A DNA stretch of 35,628 nucleotides from Candidatus Nomurabacteria bacterium RIFCSPHIGHO2_02_40_30. GTDB lineage: Bacteria; Patescibacteriota; Minisyncoccia; Phycocordibacterales; UBA9973. The stretch is taken from contig MFTV01000012.1 of NCBI GenBank assembly GCA_001785445.1, positions 1-35,628 of the forward strand, in the 5' to 3' direction. Of the stretch, positions 22,030 to 35,628 are shown in pieces. The position numbers and the translations under genes were made by a program. The stretch's first letter is position 1. The number at the start of each line of letters is the position of its first letter. The notes under the pieces are model-generated. The model saw only the letters and a program-made list of their open reading frames with translations, did no database searches and was not told where the DNA came from.

Positions 22030-22037
22030 AATTAAGG
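22030..22037 (+). repeat. Left copy of the 8-bp target-site duplication
   Basis: AATTAAGG directly abuts the left terminal inverted repeat. The identical octamer abuts the right repeat at 25482-25489. IS1595 elements make 8-bp duplications. Confidence 0.85.
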
Positions 22038-22062
22038 GGGAACTATATACATTATTACCCTA
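22038..22062 (+). repeat. Left terminal inverted repeat
   Basis: 25 bp, starts GGGAACTATATAC and ends TTACCCTA. Perfect inverse complement of 25457-25481. Confidence 0.9.
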
Positions 22063-22068
22063 ACTAAA

Positions 22069-22245
22069 TTAGTTGCTTAAAGAATCAGCAAGGCATTCTT
22101 TGCATCCTATTGTGTTATCGGCAGGAAGCGTATCTACATATTTAGTGCCTTCAATTTGCAGTTCTCTATCTGCATGTTTTTGACAGAGAAAAAGCTTTTT
22201 ATCTCCTCTTTCAATAATACATTTTGCAGGATGGTTCGGTCTCAT
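22069..22245 (-). CDS. 58-aa Cys-rich putative zinc-binding protein
   Basis: ATG at 22245, 3 nt after the stop of the preceding gene; stop at 22069-22071, 7 nt inside the left end of the transposon. Cys9, Cys21, His24 and a CKEC pair (Cys48, Cys51) could make a single zinc site or treble-clef-like knuckle (AKCIIERGDKKLFLCQKH, then GCKEC). No known family is recognised. Last gene of the transposon's minus-strand run. Confidence 0.65.
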   Translation of the reverse strand: MRPNHPAKCIIERGDKKLFLCQKHADRELQIEGTKYVDTLPADNTIGCKECLADSLSN

Positions 22246-22248
22246 TTT

Positions 22249-22473
22249 TTATAATTTATAGTCGCCTTTTACGATTCTCAACGCTATATCAGAAATTTCG
22301 GGATTAGGTTTACTATTTAAAAATTGCAAAGTAACTTCATCTTTAGTTATGTTTTTAACATCAATCAAAAGCCCAGATACGGGTGTAAAGGTTTGTATCG
22401 CAAGGTAATCTCCCTTTTTAAGAGATAGGTGTATTGGTGTGTGAGGCGCAATGTTAATTGTTTGTTTTTGCAT
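22249..22473 (-). CDS. 74-aa small beta-rich protein, unknown function
   Basis: MQKQTINIAPHTPIHLSLKK start, then alternating hydrophobic strands (DYLAIQTF, GLLIDVKNI, EVTLQFLN, IALRIVKGDYKL), which suggest a small beta fold. No recognisable domain. It starts 2 nt after the 55-aa gene's stop and ends 3 nt before the 58-aa gene's start, so translation is probably coupled through the whole cluster. Confidence 0.6.
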   Translation of the reverse strand: MQKQTINIAPHTPIHLSLKKGDYLAIQTFTPVSGLLIDVKNITKDEVTLQFLNSKPNPEISDIALRIVKGDYKL

Positions 22474-22475
22474 TT

Positions 22476-22643
22476 TTACTTAACTAGTTCGTATTTCTTG
22501 CATGGGCAAGTAATTTCACTATTACTTGCCCTACAAGCTCCGTCTCTCTCAAAAGGAGGAGGAACTTGACCATCTTCAAAAGTCTTAATTCCGTTATGCA
22601 TACTTCTGGTATGCTCACACTTACACATTTCCTCTTTTTCCAT
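22476..22643 (-). CDS. 55-aa Cys-rich putative zinc-binding protein
   Basis: ATG at 22643, stop 2 nt before the next ATG. CKCEH near the N-terminus (Cys7, Cys9, His11) and Cys37, Cys46, Cys48 (TCPCKKYE) near the C-terminus form two half sites around a Pro-rich loop. Zinc binding is inferred from spacing. No family recognised; it resembles small metal-binding peptides made by phages and archaea. Confidence 0.65.
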   Translation of the reverse strand: MEKEEMCKCEHTRSMHNGIKTFEDGQVPPPFERDGACRASNSEITCPCKKYELVK

Positions 22644-22669
22644 AGTTATTATTTTTTCTTAACCTTTAA

Positions 22670-22936
22670 TTAGGCATGAATTAGTCGCTCAATTCTCCAA
22701 GAATTGAACTTTGGAGTTGGGGTTGCGCTAATGCACGTTTCTCCATTAGCAACTGCTTGTGAGGCAAGAGTTCCACTTACAATATTATATTTTTTATCAG
22801 AATTGTCTCTAAATATGATACAAGCATTATTAGGAATTTTTTTTGCAATATCGGGATTGTGAACAATAAAATTATTAAACTTTATTGTGAATGCCAAAGT
22901 TTTTTCTGTTATTCTTTTATCTTCTACTTTTTTCAT
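22670..22936 (-). CDS. 88-aa protein, DUF5647-like
   Basis: The core FNNFIVHNPDIAKKIPNNACIIFRDNSDKKYN and the following VSGTLASQAVANGETCI resemble the DUF5647 pattern (a short helix, NPD, IPxxA, IIF, then an acidic turn and a helix ending in a valine-rich strand). This is recognition by pattern, not a search. Function of DUF5647 is unknown; it is often in small-gene clusters in archaea and candidate phyla. It overlaps the preceding gene by 20 nt. Confidence 0.55.
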   Translation of the reverse strand: MKKVEDKRITEKTLAFTIKFNNFIVHNPDIAKKIPNNACIIFRDNSDKKYNIVSGTLASQAVANGETCISATPTPKFNSWRIERLIHA

Positions 22937-23279
22937 AACTTAATTTGTAGTTACTTATAATACTACCATGGTGTTGCTTAAAATCTAAGATAAGTGCTGT
23001 TAATAAGTCGGCTGGCTTACCTTGCAGATAGATTTTTGCCTCTTTTCTACCTTGCTCGGTATAACTATATAAATGGCAATGGGGTGCAACACCAACATGA
23101 GAATTATCACATCTTTTAACATCCTGCCATCTTCCGTTTAACTTTAAGAGTAATGCTACCGAATAATGCGTAACTACGCCTTTCTTTATATTAAAGCATA
23201 CTTCAATTCTCTCGTCAATGTTAAGGGGTATTGTATATTTTTTTTCCTTTGTTTTTATTTTTTGTAATTTTTTTTTCAT
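22917..23279 (-). CDS. 120-aa protein, possibly DUF7718-like
   Basis: Starts at the ATG at 23279 (MKKKLQKIKTKEKKY). Strands IPLNIDERIEVCFNIKKG, VVTHYSVALLLKLNGRWQDVKRCDNSH and VAPHCHLYSY, then a helix ending KPADLLTALILDFKQHH. The DNSH...PHCHLY arrangement could be a catalytic or metal site. The order of strands with 'RxD...PH' recalls DUF7718-type proteins; this is weak. It overlaps the 50-aa gene upstream by 59 nt in a different frame and the next gene by 20 nt. Confidence 0.5.
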   Translation of the reverse strand: MKKKLQKIKTKEKKYTIPLNIDERIEVCFNIKKGVVTHYSVALLLKLNGRWQDVKRCDNSHVGVAPHCHLYSYTEQGRKEAKIYLQGKPADLLTALILDFKQHHGSIISNYKLSYEKSRR

Positions 23280-23373
23280 CTCTATACTTAGACCCAGCAA
23301 TAGCACCAAGCACCTCGTCAAACGAGGCGTTTATTGGCTCATGCTTTTTACTTGGTCTTCCTTTCTTTTTCAT
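23221..23373 (-). CDS. 50-aa basic protein coupled to the transposase gene
   Basis: ATG at 23373 overlaps the transposase stop as ATGA, a classic translational coupling. Sequence begins MKKKGRPSKKHEPINASFDE: an AT-hook-like GRPSKK followed by a short helix (FDEVLGAIAG) and a Lys-rich tail. It may bind DNA at the transposon ends or modulate the transposase, but that is inference. The 120-aa gene starts inside it in another frame. Confidence 0.6.
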   Translation of the reverse strand: MKKKGRPSKKHEPINASFDEVLGAIAGSKYRDEKKITKNKNKGKKIYNTP

Positions 23374-24260
23374 GCGGTTAATGTCTTATAAGACATTTTA
23401 CCATGTTTTGAAATTTTTAGTGTAGCCAAGTCAAACTTCTCGGCTAAATTATCTGCTCTGTTATTAAAGCGGAAAGCTATCTCGTCTATGTATCGCTGTA
23501 AATGCTTTTTGCTCATTGAATGATAAGTGCCGTGATAGTTTCTCTTAAACAGCGCCCAAAAGCTTTCTATTGAGTTGGTATGTATGTTGCCTTTCACATA
23601 CTGCTTTCGGCTGTGGCGGACAGAATCGTGCTTATTGTAGCCGATTTTAACAACTTTACGATAAACTCCGGCATCGTCGGTAATAATATGTGAATCTTTG
23701 CTGACATTCTTTGTCAAAGCATTTAAGACAACATGTGTCTCTCGGTTTGGTATTTGAAATGCTCGGATGTTTCCGCTTCTTTTTGTCATTCCCATAATGG
23801 CAGACTTTTTCCTAAAACCAAACCTACGAGGACTATAACCGCCAAGATAAGTTTCGTCCACCTCTACAACACCAAGCATTTTCCCTTTGCCTTGTTTCAT
23901 TGCCTCTCTAATTCGCATATCCATGTACCAAGCAGTCTTTTGGGTTACTCCAACTTGCTCGGCAAGGTAGACGGAAGAAATACCTTTTTTAGAAGTTGTT
24001 AAAAGGTAGATAGCGATAAACCATTTCTGTAAAGAAATTTTGCTTTCCCCGAAAAGCGTCCCAGTCTTAATGGTAAAATCTTGTCGGCATTTATGACATC
24101 GGTATCTTTTGCCGTCAGCAAAGCGCATTATCTTATCGTGCTTGCAATGAGGGCAGAAATCGCCCTTTGCGAAACGGACTTGTTCAAAATGCTTCCTGCA
24201 AACCTCCTCATTGTTAAAATATGCTGTGAACTCTATAATGTTTTTAAAATTTGTTTCCAT
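23370..24260 (-). CDS. IS1595-family transposase
   Basis: 296 aa. N-terminal zinc ribbon FCPHCKHDKIMRF...YRCHKCRQDFTIKTGTLF (residues about 36-75), then a helix-turn-helix region (SSVYLAEQVGVTQKTAWYM). The DDE-type ISXO2-like core has VVEVDETYLGGY (first Asp), HIITDDAGVYRKV (second Asp) and NSIESFWALFKRNYHGTYH (third position Glu or Asn as in IS1595). It catalyses cut-and-paste or replicative transposition; target duplication of 8 bp is the family norm. It is intact and bounded by intact ends, so recent mobility is plausible. Confidence 0.95.
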   Translation of the reverse strand: METNFKNIIEFTAYFNNEEVCRKHFEQVRFAKGDFCPHCKHDKIMRFADGKRYRCHKCRQDFTIKTGTLFGESKISLQKWFIAIYLLTTSKKGISSVYLAEQVGVTQKTAWYMDMRIREAMKQGKGKMLGVVEVDETYLGGYSPRRFGFRKKSAIMGMTKRSGNIRAFQIPNRETHVVLNALTKNVSKDSHIITDDAGVYRKVVKIGYNKHDSVRHSRKQYVKGNIHTNSIESFWALFKRNYHGTYHSMSKKHLQRYIDEIAFRFNNRADNLAEKFDLATLKISKHGKMSYKTLTA

Positions 24261-24313
24261 ATATATAGCTTATACTATAAAGATAGGGTCGTCAAGTGCT
24301 AAAAATTAAAACC

Positions 24314-24401
24314 TGTGGATAACTCCAAACCTAGTCCATTTTGTTTAAAGTCCATTTTAGGTAGTTGACCCGGGGTATCGTTATCCACAGAGTATGGACT
24401 T
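24314..24401. promoter_or_regulatory. Divergent regulatory region with DnaA-box-like inverted repeat
   Basis: CTGTGGATAAC (24312-24322) and GTTATCCACAG (24380-24390) form an 11-bp perfect inverted repeat; each contains the DnaA box TTATCCACA. Between them AGTCCATTTT occurs twice in direct orientation (24333-24342, 24349-24358). This lies between the transposase promoter and the DUF5343-like gene promoter. It may be an operator for both or a DnaA-responsive site. Confidence 0.5.
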
Positions 24402-24408
24402 ATAGTAT

Positions 24409-24437
24409 TTGCATTAAAAAATGTCTTATGGTAGATT
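24409..24437 (+). promoter_or_regulatory. Promoter of the DUF5343-like gene (leaderless)
   Basis: TTGCAT (24409-24414), 17-nt spacer, TG-extended TAGATT (24432-24437), then 6 nt to the ATG at 24444. Confidence 0.7.
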
Positions 24438-24443
24438 ATATCT

Positions 24444-25166
24444 ATGTTAGAAACAAGCAAAAGAACACCTCCTTACATAGGGGTCAAAAAATTAAACGAA
24501 ACGATTGACATTATGTCCCGAAAAAATTACTCGGAGGTTTCCCCGATTCTTTTTATGTCAAATGGTTTCAGTAAGATAGATGCTTTGCTGGCTATTAGCC
24601 TTTTAAAGTTTTTAGGAATTTTAGATGAGCAAGGAAATCCAAATAATGAACTCATGTCAAAACTGCGTTTGGCGGGCGACGCACGGAAAAAAGCATTTGA
24701 TGAAATTATTCGTGCTTCTTATAGCGGTTTATTTGAAACCATTGACGAACCGCAAAATCTTTCTTCGGAAGCCCTTGATAACGCATTTTTGGCCCATTAC
24801 CCTGATTTATCAAGACGAGTACTTAAAGGAGTAAAGCCGGTTTTTTTCCGCCTTTGTGAATTGGCAGGTTTGAAAGAGAAAGGCTCTGTTAGAACTCGTA
24901 ATGTTAAACCTCGTTCAGAAAGTAAAATTAAAGAGGTTTTAAAACCAAATAAAACTCTTGGTCTGAAGAAAGATGCACCACGGGGTTTTCATGAACATTC
25001 TATTGTAAGAGGTAAAATGTTCGTTATTATTCCCGAAGATATATTTATGCGTACAGGGAGAGAAGAAGAGTTAAATAAAGATTGGTTCACTGTATTAAAA
25101 TCAGCGCACGATTTTGCTGATAAATATCTGAAAAGCGAAGATACGAATGAGGACGAGCAAACATAA
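24444..25166 (+). CDS. DUF5343-like protein
   Basis: 240 aa. The N-terminus matches the DUF5343 pattern: PPYIGVKKLNETIDIM, then a serine/glycine helix (FMSNGFSKIDALLAISLLKFLGIL), LDEQGNPNN, and LSRRVLKGVKPVFFRLCELAGL. The first ~140 residues are winged-helix-like; residues 145-190 are a basic linker (KPRSESKIKEVLKPNKTLG), followed by a charged C-terminal domain with DWFTVLKSAHDFADKYLK. DUF5343 proteins have no established function but recur near phage and defence genes. Divergent from the transposase. Confidence 0.65.
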   Translation: MLETSKRTPPYIGVKKLNETIDIMSRKNYSEVSPILFMSNGFSKIDALLAISLLKFLGILDEQGNPNNELMSKLRLAGDARKKAFDEIIRASYSGLFETIDEPQNLSSEALDNAFLAHYPDLSRRVLKGVKPVFFRLCELAGLKEKGSVRTRNVKPRSESKIKEVLKPNKTLGLKKDAPRGFHEHSIVRGKMFVIIPEDIFMRTGREEELNKDWFTVLKSAHDFADKYLKSEDTNEDEQT

Positions 25167-25173
25167 AAAATAA

Positions 25174-25268
25174 AAAGAGCCTAGGGCTCTGTATATCGTC
25201 CGTCGGAGGGCTATGGATTGAACCACCACCCTAACGGGGCCAGCGATATACAGAACTCTGGGCTCTTT
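25174..25268. ncRNA. Long nested hairpin, candidate structured RNA in the transposon
   Basis: Concentric stems: AAAGAGCC/GGCTCTTT (25174-25181, 25261-25268), an 11-bp TCTGTATATCG/CGATATACAGA (25188-25198, 25244-25254), CCGT/ACGG, AGGG/CCCT and TGG/CCA near the tip. It lies 8 nt after the DUF5343 stop and 20 nt before the tRNA. It could be a stand-alone RNA, a terminator-like 3' structure, or a processing signal for the tRNA. No reading frame fits. Confidence 0.55.
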
Positions 25269-25288
25269 ACTTAGGAAGTTAGCTCTGT

Positions 25289-25374
25289 GCTGGGGTGGCG
25301 GAATTGGTAGACGCGTCTGTTTTGTAAACAGGTATCCCTCTAAAGATATGCGAGTCCGACTCTCGTCCCCAGCA
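25289..25374 (+). tRNA. Class II tRNA with Leu-type body and UGU (Thr) anticodon
   Basis: Acceptor GCTGGGG/CCCCAGC, 7 bp perfect, discriminator A73. D-arm GCG-GAATTGGTAGA-CGC is the classic Leu tRNA D-arm. Anticodon stem TCTGT/ACAGG with loop TTTGTAA gives anticodon TGT at positions 34-36. A long variable arm (TATC-loop-GATA) makes it class II. T-arm GCGAG-TCCGACT-CTCGT has C at the position that is normally U55. No 3' CCA is encoded. The body says Leu; G1-C72, C2-G71, G35 and U36 are known E. coli Thr identity elements. Amino acid assignment is therefore open. It is 83 bp from the right end of the transposon. Confidence 0.85.
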
Positions 25375-25381
25375 CTGACTT

Positions 25382-25456
25382 GACTTTCTAAACTAAATGT
25401 ATTCTAACATAAACAACATTATGTTGTCAATACTTTGTTTGTGGATAAACCAACCC
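25382..25456. other. tRNA downstream spacer with hairpin
   Basis: AACATAA and TTATGTT pair across a 6-nt loop, which could be the 3' end of the tRNA transcript. A DnaA-box-like TGTGGATAA lies at 25440-25448. Confidence 0.4.
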
Positions 25457-25481
25457 TAGGGTAATAATGTATATAGTTCCC
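25457..25481 (-). repeat. Right terminal inverted repeat
   Basis: Perfect inverse complement of the left repeat; followed by AATTAAGG. Confidence 0.9.
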
Positions 25482-25489
25482 AATTAAGG
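25482..25489 (+). repeat. Right copy of the 8-bp target-site duplication
   Basis: AATTAAGG, identical to the octamer at the left end. Confidence 0.85.
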
Positions 25490-25692: not shown

Positions 25693-25726
25693 TATGTACG
25701 TATTACAATACGTATTAGTGTAAGTA
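25693..25726 (+). repeat. 34-bp direct repeat, copy 1, containing a palindrome
   Basis: Begins TATGTACGTATTACAATACG. The core TACGTATT-AC-AATACGTA is an 8-bp dyad with a 2-nt centre. An identical copy lies at 26566-26599. Confidence 0.85.
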
Positions 25727-25791
25727 CGCTTTGCTGGTTATTTATTGCTTATTTTGCAAAAAGTTATATTTCTCTATTTATCCACACCCCC

Positions 25792-26565: not shown

Positions 26566-26599
26566 TATGTACGTATTACAATACGTATTAGTGTAAGTA
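26566..26599 (+). repeat. 34-bp direct repeat, copy 2
   Basis: Identical to 25693-25726, 873 bp apart. Its right end merges with a TATAAT at 26598-26603 on the plus strand. Confidence 0.85.
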
Positions 26600-26603
26600 T
26601 AAT
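26598..26603 (+). promoter_or_regulatory. Possible -10 box facing tRNA-Asn
   Basis: TATAAT with TTACAA 16 nt upstream. It would transcribe the tRNA with a ~185-nt leader. Confidence 0.4.
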
Positions 26604-26793
26604 TTGTTTTTTACTCAATTTCTGCTACTATGATAAAAGTTCTTTTGAGAATTAAATAAATTCCGGGGTAGTTGAAATACGTATAGTATTTCAAAGGCGC
26701 AGGCACGAAGGTGCCGAGTCGGGGTCGCGAGATTTTTCAGCAGAAAAATACTTGTGACCAGCGGTTCCGCTGAGCTATCTTTGGGAATAAAAT
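26604..26793 (+). other. tRNA-Asn leader region with repeats and hairpins
   Basis: No gene. AAATTCCGGGGTAG at 26658-26671 duplicates the start of the tRNA (26790-26803). A 9-bp perfect hairpin TTGAAATAC-gtata-GTATTTCAA follows, then AGGCAC-gaag-GTGCC. At 26767-26777 CCGCTGAGCTA is the exact inverse complement of tRNA positions TAGCTCAGCGG (26801-26811). Confidence 0.55.
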
Positions 26794-26868
26794 TCCGGGG
26801 TAGCTCAGCGGTAGAGCGGTCGCCTGTTAAGCGATTGGTCGTAGGTTCGATCCCTACCCCCGGAGCCA
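26794..26868 (+). tRNA. tRNA-Asn (GTT)
   Basis: Acceptor TCCGGGG/CCCCGGA, discriminator G, encoded CCA. D-arm TAGCTCAGCGGTAGAGC, anticodon loop CTGTTAA (anticodon GTT), T-arm GTAGG-TTCGATC-CCTAC. Canonical Asn. Confidence 0.95.
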
Positions 26869-28494
26869 AGTATGACGAGAAGGCACGAAAGTGCCTTTTT
26901 GTCTTTCTGTGTCTGGGTTTTCAGAGGTTCGAGCGGGGACACCAGTTGATGTCAGCGATTTTTTATTCTCGAAGATGCTCAAGAAGAAAGGATGTAGTTG
27001 TACATTGATTTTTTGGTCTTTTAATACGAGGTTCGAGCCGAGACACGCCAGGATGCTTCTCTTCGTCGCATTGTCGCCATTCTCAAACCACGCACGCGCG
27101 TAGCAGGCAAAATTAAATGTTCTTTCACTCAACTCCATCCACTGCTCAATTTCCTTACCCTTATCATTTAGCTCGCTCTCAAGGGCATTTTTGCGCTTCA
27201 AGAGCTGTTCTTTTAGGGTCTGATACTCACTCGTTGAAATGATATCACTGTTGGCATTTTGAGGAGAAGTAAATTTAAGAAGAAGCCCCTCAAGTTGATT
27301 ATCGGTAGTTTCTAACTCCTTGTGTTTTTTCTTCAAGACTACATCGTGGGCATCTGCTTCATTTACACGGACTTCGTGGAGATTCTTTATAGCCCACGCC
27401 TTGAATTTTTCCGAAATTGTAATGCCATCGAGCAACTCAATTACCTGGCGGTTCAACTCTTTGAGTTCAATAGACCGTTCCGTACAGTCAGGATTCTTCT
27501 TTCTTGTACAATGATAATACACATAAGAATGTATATTACCGTTCTTACATCGCTTTACTTTCGGCTCGGCAGTAATACTACTTTCACAACTTGCACACCG
27601 CATTAAACGTCCCGTAAAAGCCATTTCGTGGTGTCGCTTCGGTTGTGCCGCGCTTCGACGTCCAAGAACTTCTTGCACACGGTCATACTCTTCACGTGTA
27701 ATCATTGGTTCGTGTTCGCCTTTCTGCCATATCATTTTACCCGTGTCTTTATCTTTATATTCAAACCATCCGAAGTAAAAGGGATTTGTAAAAACATTCT
27801 TATATACATAACTGCGATTAAGAAACTTCCCGCCAATTTTTCTATGCTGAACCGTGGTCAAGCCCCACTCTCTAGTCATATTGATTATTTGTGGCACCGA
27901 ATAATTTCCTGTAAGCATCAAGTCCCACATTCTTCGAACTAGCGGGAAGCGTTCAGGGTCATTTTCAATTGTTTTGAACCCTTTTTCTTTTCCAGGTGTA
28001 TTACGGTATCCAATGGGCGCACCCGAAGGTCGCCAGCCCATTTTAGCTTTCATTTCAAGACCTCTTTTAACATCTCGCCCTTTCTTCGCGCTCTCGTACT
28101 GAGATTGCGACAGTGCCATTTGAAGCATCCAGATGCCTTCTGGGTTATTTTCGAAGTGATATGTTGCAAATTTCAAATCAAAAATAAAACCTTTTCTTAC
28201 TCGATATGTAATAGCGCTTGCATCAATCTCATTTCTCGAAAGACGGTCAGGGTGATAAGCGATAAGACCGTTTCGTTCTCCTTTCTCCATACGTTGCAAC
28301 ATACTTTCTAACCCAGGACGATTATATGGTTTGAATGCACTCTTTTCTTCCTCAATAAACTCAATGTTAAGACTAGGAAACATCTTATTGATTTTCTCTT
28401 TCTGGGCAGGAATAGAAAGAGCTTGCCGCTCTTGTCCTTCGGATGATTTTCTGACATACGCAAAGTATTTAATTTCCGTTTCAATTTTTTTCAT
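26854..28494 (-). CDS. Serine recombinase (large resolvase/integrase type)
   Basis: 546 aa. N-terminal resolvase domain: FAYVRKSSEGQERQALSI with the catalytic Ser of the RKS motif, then NGLIAYHPDRLSRNEIDA. The recombinase domain follows (RDVKRGLEMKAKMGWRPSGAPIGY, AFTNPFYFGWFEYK-like repeats). A zinc ribbon is at MRCASCESSITAE with CNG...YYHCTRKKNPDC. A coiled coil (about 395-455) is followed by LGSNLVLKDQKINV near the C-terminus. It catalyses integration or excision at att sites. Its last codons run over the 3' end of tRNA-Asn in antisense and through its terminator, so the original end was probably altered by integration. Confidence 0.93.
   Translation of the reverse strand: MKKIETEIKYFAYVRKSSEGQERQALSIPAQKEKINKMFPSLNIEFIEEEKSAFKPYNRPGLESMLQRMEKGERNGLIAYHPDRLSRNEIDASAITYRVRKGFIFDLKFATYHFENNPEGIWMLQMALSQSQYESAKKGRDVKRGLEMKAKMGWRPSGAPIGYRNTPGKEKGFKTIENDPERFPLVRRMWDLMLTGNYSVPQIINMTREWGLTTVQHRKIGGKFLNRSYVYKNVFTNPFYFGWFEYKDKDTGKMIWQKGEHEPMITREEYDRVQEVLGRRSAAQPKRHHEMAFTGRLMRCASCESSITAEPKVKRCKNGNIHSYVYYHCTRKKNPDCTERSIELKELNRQVIELLDGITISEKFKAWAIKNLHEVRVNEADAHDVVLKKKHKELETTDNQLEGLLLKFTSPQNANSDIISTSEYQTLKEQLLKRKNALESELNDKGKEIEQWMELSERTFNFACYARAWFENGDNATKRSILACLGSNLVLKDQKINVQLHPFFLSIFENKKSLTSTGVPARTSENPDTERQKGTFVPSRHTWLRG
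26881..26900 (+). terminator. Intrinsic terminator after tRNA-Asn
   Basis: AGGCAC-GAAA-GTGCCT then a run of T. Confidence 0.8.
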
Positions 28495-33882: not shown

Positions 33883-35458
33883 TAAGTACCGTGTCAGCAG
33901 ACATTCTTGGTATAAAAACATATCCTGGGTTAGCTTGAAAATAGGTTCTAACCTGGTATACTACGCGGAGCCATTCAGAGTAGAGTCCAAAATAGGGCGC
34001 GCGCGAAGCGCGCGAGAGTGTGGCGGGAATTTCAGAATCCCAAGAATTCAAAAGGATTTCCCAAGATTTTTTTGGAGAAAATGAAAGCGTGCGAGCGGAG
34101 AGAATGGGGTTCGAGCCAATCTTTTTAAGAAAATTTTTCTTGTCCTCTAAATTTTCTTTTGAAGCGGTAATTGTGGCTTGTTTGCTATCTAAAATGAAAA
34201 GTCGCATCGGTTCGAGCCAATGATTGCCCTTTTGCTCAAAATCTTGCAATTTTTCTGATAACTCGATTTTTTGATTGAGAATTTTTTGCTTTTTTACCAC
34301 ATACTCGTCTTTCGGAATAAGTCCGTCCAAATGAGTGTCCAATAATTTTTCAATTTTGTCATTCAAATTTCCAATCTCTACTTTAAGATTTTGAGCAAAA
34401 ATATTTCCGTCTTGCCGTTCTTGCTCGCGTTCGGTTTCTAATTTCGCGAGCATTTCATCAGCCCAAGACGGTGGCAAAGAAACTTTTTGCAGGGCATCAT
34501 TTATTTGTTCAATAAGCGATTCTTCACGAATAAACTTCTGTGAACAATTTCCTCGCTTTTTTGTGCAACGATAATAATGATGTCCTTTTTGTATTTCGGA
34601 AGTAATGGCGCATCCACATTCAGCACAATTTAATAATCCCCGAAGTGTCGGTTTTGCAATATGGCGTTTCTTTGGTTGTGATTTGTTTGCCATTACTTCC
34701 GCACATTTATCAAAAAGTTTCTTTGATATCATTGGCTCGTGTTTTCCTTGGTGCAGTTCGCCATTATATTTAAAAACTCCGTAATAAAAAGAATTTGAAA
34801 TAGTATGTTGGATTAAGGAAACCGATGGGACTTTTCCGCTCTTTCCAAACAAGCCGATTGATGTTGAAGTATTTTGTAAATCTTTCATTGAGTAGTTGCC
34901 GGTTGCGTACAATTCAAAAAGTTTTTTGACGAGGCGAAACCGCTCGGCATCTTTTATAATATTGTGTTTAACTTGGTCATTTAAATATCCGAGCGGAGCC
35001 CAACCGGGCCATTCGCCTCGTCTTAACTTTTGACGCAACCCACGCTTGGTGTTTTCTGAAAGATTATCTACAAAATACTTCGATTGTCCAAAAGCGATAG
35101 AAAGCATGAATTTGCCTTGGGGCGTGGCTTCAAACCAAAATGTTGGGAATTTTAGCGCGGTTATTTTTTGAGAATCAACAAAATAAATTATTCTTCCACC
35201 GTCCACAGAATTTCTTGCCAGTCGGTCGGGATGCCACGCTAAAATTCCTTCCGCTTCGCCACGCTCCATGCGGTCGAGCATTTGATTAAAAATAGGTCTG
35301 CCGGGACATTTCGCTGTTTGTGATTCACGAAATGTTTCAGCAACAATCAAATGCTCGCATCTGGCAAATTCATTCAATTCAAATTCTTGCGCTTCAAGCG
35401 AAAGAATTTGTCGGTCATCTTCGTCTGTGGATTTGCGGATGTATAAAAAATATTTCAT
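33875..35458 (-). CDS. Serine recombinase (large resolvase/integrase type), second copy
   Basis: 527 aa from the ATG at 35458. Motifs: YFLYIRKSTDEDDRQILS with catalytic Ser, ILAWHPDRLARNSVDGG, SENTKRGLRQKLRRGEWPG, a zinc ribbon LNCAECGCAITSE with YYRCTKKRGNC, a coiled coil at about 390-460 and GSNPILSARTLSF near the C-terminus. The frame extends on through ~70 codons to 33875; the last part looks unlike family ends. A 56-codon upstream extension to 35626 would only read the 95-bp inverted repeat and is unlikely. It is distinct in sequence from the first recombinase. Confidence 0.9.
   Translation of the reverse strand: MKYFLYIRKSTDEDDRQILSLEAQEFELNEFARCEHLIVAETFRESQTAKCPGRPIFNQMLDRMERGEAEGILAWHPDRLARNSVDGGRIIYFVDSQKITALKFPTFWFEATPQGKFMLSIAFGQSKYFVDNLSENTKRGLRQKLRRGEWPGWAPLGYLNDQVKHNIIKDAERFRLVKKLFELYATGNYSMKDLQNTSTSIGLFGKSGKVPSVSLIQHTISNSFYYGVFKYNGELHQGKHEPMISKKLFDKCAEVMANKSQPKKRHIAKPTLRGLLNCAECGCAITSEIQKGHHYYRCTKKRGNCSQKFIREESLIEQINDALQKVSLPPSWADEMLAKLETEREQERQDGNIFAQNLKVEIGNLNDKIEKLLDTHLDGLIPKDEYVVKKQKILNQKIELSEKLQDFEQKGNHWLEPMRLFILDSKQATITASKENLEDKKNFLKKIGSNPILSARTLSFSPKKSWEILLNSWDSEIPATLSRASRAPYFGLYSEWLRVVYQVRTYFQANPGYVFIPRMSADTVLTS
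34018..34112 (+). repeat. 95-bp inverted repeat, left arm (inside recombinase 3' end)
   Basis: Starts GTGTGGCGGG and ends GGGGTTC. Its perfect inverse complement is at 35534-35628. It overlaps the coding part after GSNP of the second recombinase. Confidence 0.95.
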
Positions 35459-35533: not shown

Positions 35534-35628
35534 GAACCCCATTCTCTCCGCTCGCACGCTTTCATTTTCTCCAAAAAAATCTTGGGAAATCCTTTTGAAT
35601 TCTTGGGATTCTGAAATTCCCGCCACAC
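35534..35628 (-). repeat. 95-bp inverted repeat, right arm (at the window end)
   Basis: Inverse complement of 34018-34112. The sequence ends exactly at the last paired base. Confidence 0.95.

Follow-up and report, generated by a model that had tools for sequence, protein, structure and literature searches.

The window, by which we mean the whole analyzed stretch of 35,628 nucleotides, is contig C12 of the 714-kb, 97% complete genome of Candidatus Nomurabacteria bacterium RIFCSPHIGHO2_02_40_30, and it contains an IS1595-family transposon with a tRNA gene near its right end (Table 1). The claim of an earlier note on this DNA that the tRNA is transposon-borne is borne out by terminal inverted repeats (TIRs, GGGAACTATATACATTATTACCCTA) and an 8-bp target-site duplication (TSD, AATTAAGG) that bracket positions 22038-25481, the outer TIR positions being identical at 20 of 20. 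The transposase matches PF12762 (130 bits), PF12760 (38 bits) and NF033547 (190 bits, cut-off 75), as an ISXO2-like enzyme of the IS1595 family, and is followed by a small ORF with homologs in the same place in three relatives. The element is single-copy in the genome and harbors no synthetase gene, and a related transposase was absent from the sampled genomes of the same genus.

Table 1. Features of the tRNA-carrying IS1595-family element in the window.
Feature	Position	Strand	Remarks
Left target-site duplication	22030..22037		AATTAAGG
IS1595-family transposon with tRNA	22038..25481		3444 bp; TIRs and 8-bp TSD; transposase NF033547, 190 bits
Left terminal inverted repeat	22038..22062	+	GGGAACTATATACATTATTACCCTA
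Subfamily TIR pattern			GGGAACTATATAC...TACCC
Cargo ORF, DUF7718	22917..23321	-	Pfam PF24839
Small ORF after transposase	23221..23373	-	50 aa; KKHEPINASFDEVLGAIAG; read from sequence
IS1595 transposase	23370..24260	-	296 aa; Pfam PF12762/PF12760, NCBIfam NF033547
Cargo ORF, DUF5343 protein	24444..25166	+	PADLOC PDC-M34A match
Long hairpin, cargo gene-tRNA interval	25174..25268	-	z about -6; followed by T-run on antisense strand, terminator-like
Class II tRNA, Leu-type body	25289..25374	+	anticodon UGU; A73; no encoded CCA
Sigma-70-like promoter, antisense	25401..25430	-	TTGACA-18-TAGAAT, 11/12; just past tRNA 3' end
Right terminal inverted repeat	25457..25481	-	
Right target-site duplication	25482..25489		AATTAAGG

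The tRNA gene was called at 25289-25375 by ARAGORN and at 25289-25374 by Rfam model RF00005 (50.8 bits), and the interval first proposed for it was thus recovered exactly. The class II cloverleaf, the leucine-type D-arm and the loop TTTGTAA at positions 32-38, giving the anticodon UGU, are all as previously described, and the A15-U48 pair and A73 are of leucine type as well. The loop conforms to the threonine anticodon pattern of G35 and U36 with A37, and not to the leucine patterns (NAG or YAA); its U36, A37 and A38 also occur in genuine clade tRNAs of the Thr(UGU) type. In contrast, the variable region of 17 nt and A73 depart from the class I body and U73 of the threonine tRNAs of the clade, in which the discriminator base is A73 in 29 of 30 leucine, U73 in 18 of 19 threonine and G73 in 28 of 32 serine tRNAs. 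With covariance models built from clade tRNAs (17 Leu, 16 Thr and 16 Ser), the check suggested alongside the original claim placed the window tRNA with leucine, at 76.7 bits on the leucine model vs 48.8 on the serine and 28.9 on the threonine model. Genuine host leucine tRNAs score 91-101 bits on the leucine model and genuine threonine tRNAs 74-88 on the threonine model, values that are flattered by the presence of host tRNAs among the model-building sequences, while the cross-model comparison for the window tRNA is unaffected. Based on A73, A15-U48 and the model scores, a leucine rather than a threonine identity is favored.

The leucyl-tRNA synthetase (LeuRS) of E. coli depends on A73 and on pairs in the tertiary core, and not on the anticodon; among the core features required by bacterial LeuRS are A15 and the G18:U55, G19-C56 and U54:A58 pairs (PMC9976931). 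C55 breaks the G18:U55 pair in the window tRNA, and because this pair is important to leucylation by the E. coli enzyme and belongs to the core on which bacterial LeuRS depends, C55 may be a weakness for leucylation. The replacement of U55 by C had been pointed out in the earlier note; the substitution is present, but two ordinary host tRNAs, tRNA-Thr(GGU) (L007) and tRNA-Ala(GGC) (L020), have the same TCCGA T-loop, and it was rejected as a special feature.

The host tRNA set already includes normal tRNA-Thr genes with anticodons UGU, GGU and CGU and tRNA-Leu genes with GAG, UAA, UAG and CAA, so the window tRNA(UGU) is an extra gene. An origin by plain copying of a host tRNA was rejected, identity with the compared Leu, Thr and Ser tRNAs of the host being only 60-67%, although 15 nt of the anticodon arm (CTGTTTTGTAAACAG) are common to the window tRNA and host tRNA-Thr(UGU). 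An anticodon loop misread in sequencing, which would have undone the original claim, is very unlikely because UGU with A37 and A38 recurs in three other elements.

A closely related element (G103) from another family of the same order encodes a transposase 76% identical to that of the window and carries a class II UGU tRNA in the same place, within a TSD of TTTTAATT. Two further relatives come from an IMG/VR contig (L132; transposase 56% identical), with a Leu-type UGU tRNA, and from another member of the phylum (L152; TSD ACAATATT, transposase 55% identical), whose Leu-type tRNA has the anticodon AGA and, like that of the window, is preceded by a DUF5343 gene and a hairpin. When 2.9 million viral contigs were scanned, blind to transposons, for a leucine D-arm followed by an NGU loop, L068 was the one well-formed tRNA obtained. 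It is of Leu type with UGU, and the distant IS1595 element that contains it has the TSD AAAAAGTC and is located on a high-GC contig. The Leu-type tRNAs of G103, L132, L152 and L068 are all within TIR-bounded elements. Overall, in a set made up of 67 complete IS1595 elements and L132, tRNAs were found inside seven, most elements having none; two of the seven carriers, L161 (UUG) and L211 (CGC), have tRNA bodies that are not of Leu type and that by eye resemble Pro (L161:652-725) and Arg (L211:2903-2979), respectively. Candidate cargo tRNAs in L178 and L193 were rejected as they lie outside the TIRs. DUF5343 proteins adjoin the tRNA in three IS1595 elements (window 24444-25166, L152:4514-5266 and L211:1744-2490), the assignment in L152 and L211 being by sequence resemblance and the PADLOC candidate PDC-M34A being the window copy. 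In the G103 element, a stretch of ~400 nt (L121:6690-7097) that is apparently structured and has no obvious gene stands upstream of the tRNA in place of the DUF5343 gene.

A leucine D-arm with an NGU loop was found, among 397 genomes of the order, in the window tRNA only. Such pattern scans undercount because the D-arm and C33 of the G103 copy evade the pattern. Most pattern matches were rejected as tRNAs and are probably intron-split tRNA-Leu genes or chance matches; only L046, L068 and L052, the last with an 8-nt loop, fold as tRNAs. The L046 gene (L046:5449-5532, in a Woeseiaceae MAG) encodes a UGU tRNA of Leu type, is preceded by a terminator-like hairpin and is located between cas3 and a cas8e-like gene; its product is a candidate CreTA-like or addiction RNA. 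The TIR end of the subfamily was also observed on three viral contigs (L135:4261, L137:5948 and L134:9797), with no transposase or tRNA found beside it within the stretch examined.

The five Leu-type element tRNAs share 54-70% identity. Across them, 96.7% of stem cells are paired and 19 of 24 pairs have changed on both sides, values reached in none of 500 shuffles; the alignment was fitted to the leucine model, which favors that structure, and slid controls drop to 34-50% paired. Residues U8, A14, A15, G18, G19, U48, U54, C56 and A58, among others, are invariant, and the whole is what would be expected of a working tRNA. Irregularities occur as well, in the form of C33 and a mismatched acceptor pair in G103 and of U73 in L152. 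The element tRNAs combine the body of one isotype with the anticodon of another, under selection. Their cargo status and conservation are all but established, and in the explanation preferred here the tRNA is kept as a working component of this IS1595 subfamily and is not a stray passenger.

Comparison of the flanks of the tRNA revealed an antisense promoter-like sequence in the window and, at the equivalent spot 26-51 nt from the tRNA end, matches of 10-11 of 12 consensus positions in G103, L132 and L152. Promoters of at least 10/12 in this orientation, counted as consensus matches and not as transcripts, are present in 4/4 close elements vs 1/120 host tRNAs (Fisher p=5e-7), and are absent in L068 and L211. 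No obvious or comparable sense promoter adjoins the tRNA in the window, G103, L132 or L152, and sense expression of the tRNA would come about by read-through from the cargo gene. On the other side of the tRNA, the loop of the window hairpin is homologous to that of L132, and the T-run that follows the hairpin is clear in the window. An antisense RNA of ~220 nt covering the tRNA and the hairpin is likely because a promoter past the tRNA is paired with an upstream hairpin that has a T-run on the antisense strand. The hairpin was rejected as a known RNA family, nothing scoring above the gathering threshold, and as a repeated element, being single-copy in the genome. Pairing between leader and trailer that extends the acceptor stem is significant in the window and L132 and absent in the other elements.

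A leucylated tRNA of this kind would make ACA ambiguous, and carriers should therefore avoid ACA where threonine is required. In the transposases of the three close UGU carriers (window, G103 and L132), ACA is used at none of 15 family-conserved threonine sites vs 21 of 43 threonine codons elsewhere (p=4e-4), compared with 39 of 176 conserved sites vs 114 of 471 elsewhere in 40 non-carriers (p=0.6); these statistics come from few lineages, and the window and G103 transposases, at 76% identity, are not independent. ACA is the most deviant of all codons tested in the carriers (p=1.8e-4). Transposase positions encoded by ACA include 159, 183 and 280. Across 112 transposases, threonine conservation is 0.11 at the ACA sites of the carriers vs 0.51 at their other threonine codons, and when unique columns are counted it is 0.08 vs 0.43 (p=4e-4). 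Taken one carrier at a time, the differences for the window (-0.53) and G103 (-0.41) are more negative than in any of the 52 non-carriers (minimum -0.30), and that for L132 (-0.24) lies within the non-carrier range (p=0.13 alone). Among the 20 nearest homologs, leucine occurs at the ACA sites with a frequency of 0.117 vs 0.005 (permutation p=8.5e-4), the corresponding values in non-carriers being 0.027 vs 0.022. Host dnaE has no ACA bias (0.64 vs 0.65), and the DUF5343 gene, with four ACA codons only, has too few for a pattern.

A strict reassignment of ACA to leucine was rejected. Threonine is marginally best in the summed profile at the ACA sites, with leucine not among the best residues, and at codon 88, where 15 of the 20 nearest homologs have threonine, each of the three carriers uses ACA. 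The codon pattern fits an ambiguity that the transposase tolerates and not a reassignment. A matching-codon rule for every carrier, which in L161 would concern CAA, was likewise rejected; no significant signal was obtained for L152 (TCT), L068 (ACA) or L211 (GCG).

The explanation we prefer, which we judge to be evenly balanced between right and wrong, is that the mobile element carries a leucylated, ACA-reading mistranslator tRNA that is probably restrained by antisense RNA. Host LeuRS, which ignores the anticodon in bacteria, would charge the tRNA with leucine, and the product would read ACA alongside host tRNA-Thr(UGU), rendering the codon partly ambiguous between Thr and Leu in cells that bear the element. 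The transposase would adapt by keeping ACA off sites that require threonine, and the antisense promoter with the upstream hairpin terminator would give an RNA that probably holds tRNA expression low, the benefit to the element being control of transposase dosage, or addiction. The leucine body, the UGU loop and the residence on a transposon on which the original proposal of a Leu-charged ACA mistranslator was built all stand, and mistranslation of ACA itself is indicated indirectly, by the codon placement in the carrier transposases. A more specific version, in which the element maintains its own ambiguous codon, placing ACA where either Leu or Thr is tolerable under antisense control of the leucylated reader and with the transposase dependent on the tRNA, is tentative and a good deal less probable; if true, it would amount to a dosage switch for active transposase written in the genetic code.

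In the earlier note, charging by ThrRS and thus an oddly built threonine tRNA was offered as the alternative. G1-C72, C2-G71, G35 and U36, which are threonine identity elements in E. coli, are present in the window tRNA. Threonine identity in E. coli resides in the acceptor pairs and the anticodon, and position 73 is not a strong threonine determinant in most species (PMC9976931). An extra, ThrRS-charged tRNA adding ACA-decoding capacity for the element would also agree with the share of ACA among threonine codons, which is 42% (8/19) in the transposase vs 22% (67/299) in eight genes of the host within the window. However, A73 and the scores weaken this alternative, the body being of Leu type by every score and A73 standing where the threonine tRNAs of the clade have U73; G1-C72 and C2-G71 are equally normal for the leucine tRNAs of the clade, L068 has G1-U72 and G2-C71, and the host already possesses tRNA-Thr(UGU). 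Moreover, ACA avoids the conserved threonine sites, the opposite of what an extra supply predicts, and we consider the extra threonine tRNA quite improbable. More improbable still is a captured tRNA-Leu or chimera that decays as a passenger with a randomly drifted anticodon, to which the deficit in score relative to host leucine tRNAs (76.7 vs 91-101 bits), the C33 and broken acceptor pair of G103 and the many IS1595 elements that have no tRNA would lend themselves; it is strongly contradicted by the purifying selection evident from compensatory change in 19 of 24 pairs, copies 54-70% identical and invariant tertiary residues, and by the recurrence of UGU in four elements.

Somewhat unlikely, in our estimate, is a role outside translation, with the locus producing an antisense or regulatory RNA, or a sense tRNA serving in processing or mimicry, and the anticodon being incidental. 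The promoter-to-terminator unit on the antisense strand, with its strong promoter in all four close relatives and its T-run after the window hairpin, agrees with such a role, as do the want of a good sense promoter adjoining the tRNA in these elements and the variation of the anticodons (UGU, AGA, UUG in L161 and CGC in L211). The sense strand nevertheless retains the tertiary residues and a decoding-competent loop, G-U pairs outnumber A-C mismatches in the sense orientation by the small margin of seven to three, four diverged elements have retained UGU, and the ACA pattern of the transposases would be left unexplained. An addiction unit, with the mistranslating tRNA as toxin and the antisense RNA as antidote after the manner of type I systems or of the CRISPR-linked CreTA, is a refinement of the mistranslator explanation and not exclusive of it. 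The convergent arrangement of antisense promoter and terminator hairpin is in keeping with this refinement, and the unrelated tRNA of L046 occupies between its cas genes a position like that of CreTA modules (PMC8501985). Addiction has no need for codon adaptation in the transposase, however, and the missing antisense promoters of L068 and L211 also speak against it; we rate it as unlikely.

Several known systems resemble parts of the proposed mistranslator. In Streptomyces and other bacteria, the tRNA-ProX family (ProA, ProT and ProN) joins a proline body to Ala, Asn or Thr anticodons and is reported to mistranslate, according to a commentary (PMC10365949); the element tRNA is similar in combining the canonical body of one isotype with the anticodon of another, threonine anticodons included. 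It differs in having a Leu instead of a Pro body, in the absence of a synthetase gene where tRNA-ProX often has a special ProRS nearby, and in being transposon cargo with an antisense promoter, transposon cargo not being described in that commentary. The nev-tRNAs of nematodes, conserved class II tRNAs that can be charged with leucine and have the anticodons CCC (Gly) and UAU (Ile), are likewise Leu-type tRNAs with foreign anticodons, though eukaryotic, and since mistranslation by them was not detected in the C. elegans proteome (PMC4300185), caution is due for mistranslation by the element tRNA. With IS1595 insertion sequences that carry passenger genes, the element shares TIRs, an 8-bp TSD and an ISXO2-like DDE transposase, and it is set apart by a passenger that is a tRNA with a shifted anticodon; we found no description of tRNA cargo in IS1595 in the literature searched, the coverage of which is incomplete. 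In CreTA, an RNA toxin that is regulated by CRISPR targets the supply of tRNA, CreT sequestering a tRNA; it has in common with the proposed system a small RNA that acts on decoding and is restrained at the RNA level (PMC8501985). The element is unlike CreTA in that its RNA is itself a tRNA and that no Cascade is involved in the transposon.

If the preferred explanation is right, this would, going by the papers searched, be the first mistranslator tRNA to travel horizontally on a transposon, and a case in which a mobile element takes a changed decoding rule to new hosts. The consequences would extend to the control of transposition by selfish elements, to local ambiguity of the genetic code, and to the origin and persistence of anticodon-shifted tRNAs, which are usually discarded as annotation oddities.

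Other features of the window lie outside the element. A tRNA-Asn gene with encoded CCA (26794-26868) abuts a large serine recombinase gene (26854-28494), a junction that is possibly the attachment site of a second mobile element. A 48-bp direct repeat (88%), TATGTACGTATTACAATACGTATTAG..., at 25693-25740 and 26566-26613 lies between the tRNA-Asn region and an AbrB-like ORF, and its copies are perhaps operators. Lastly, a perfect inverted repeat of 95 bp (34018-34112 and 35534-35628) reaches the end of the contig and may be a repeat or an assembly edge.
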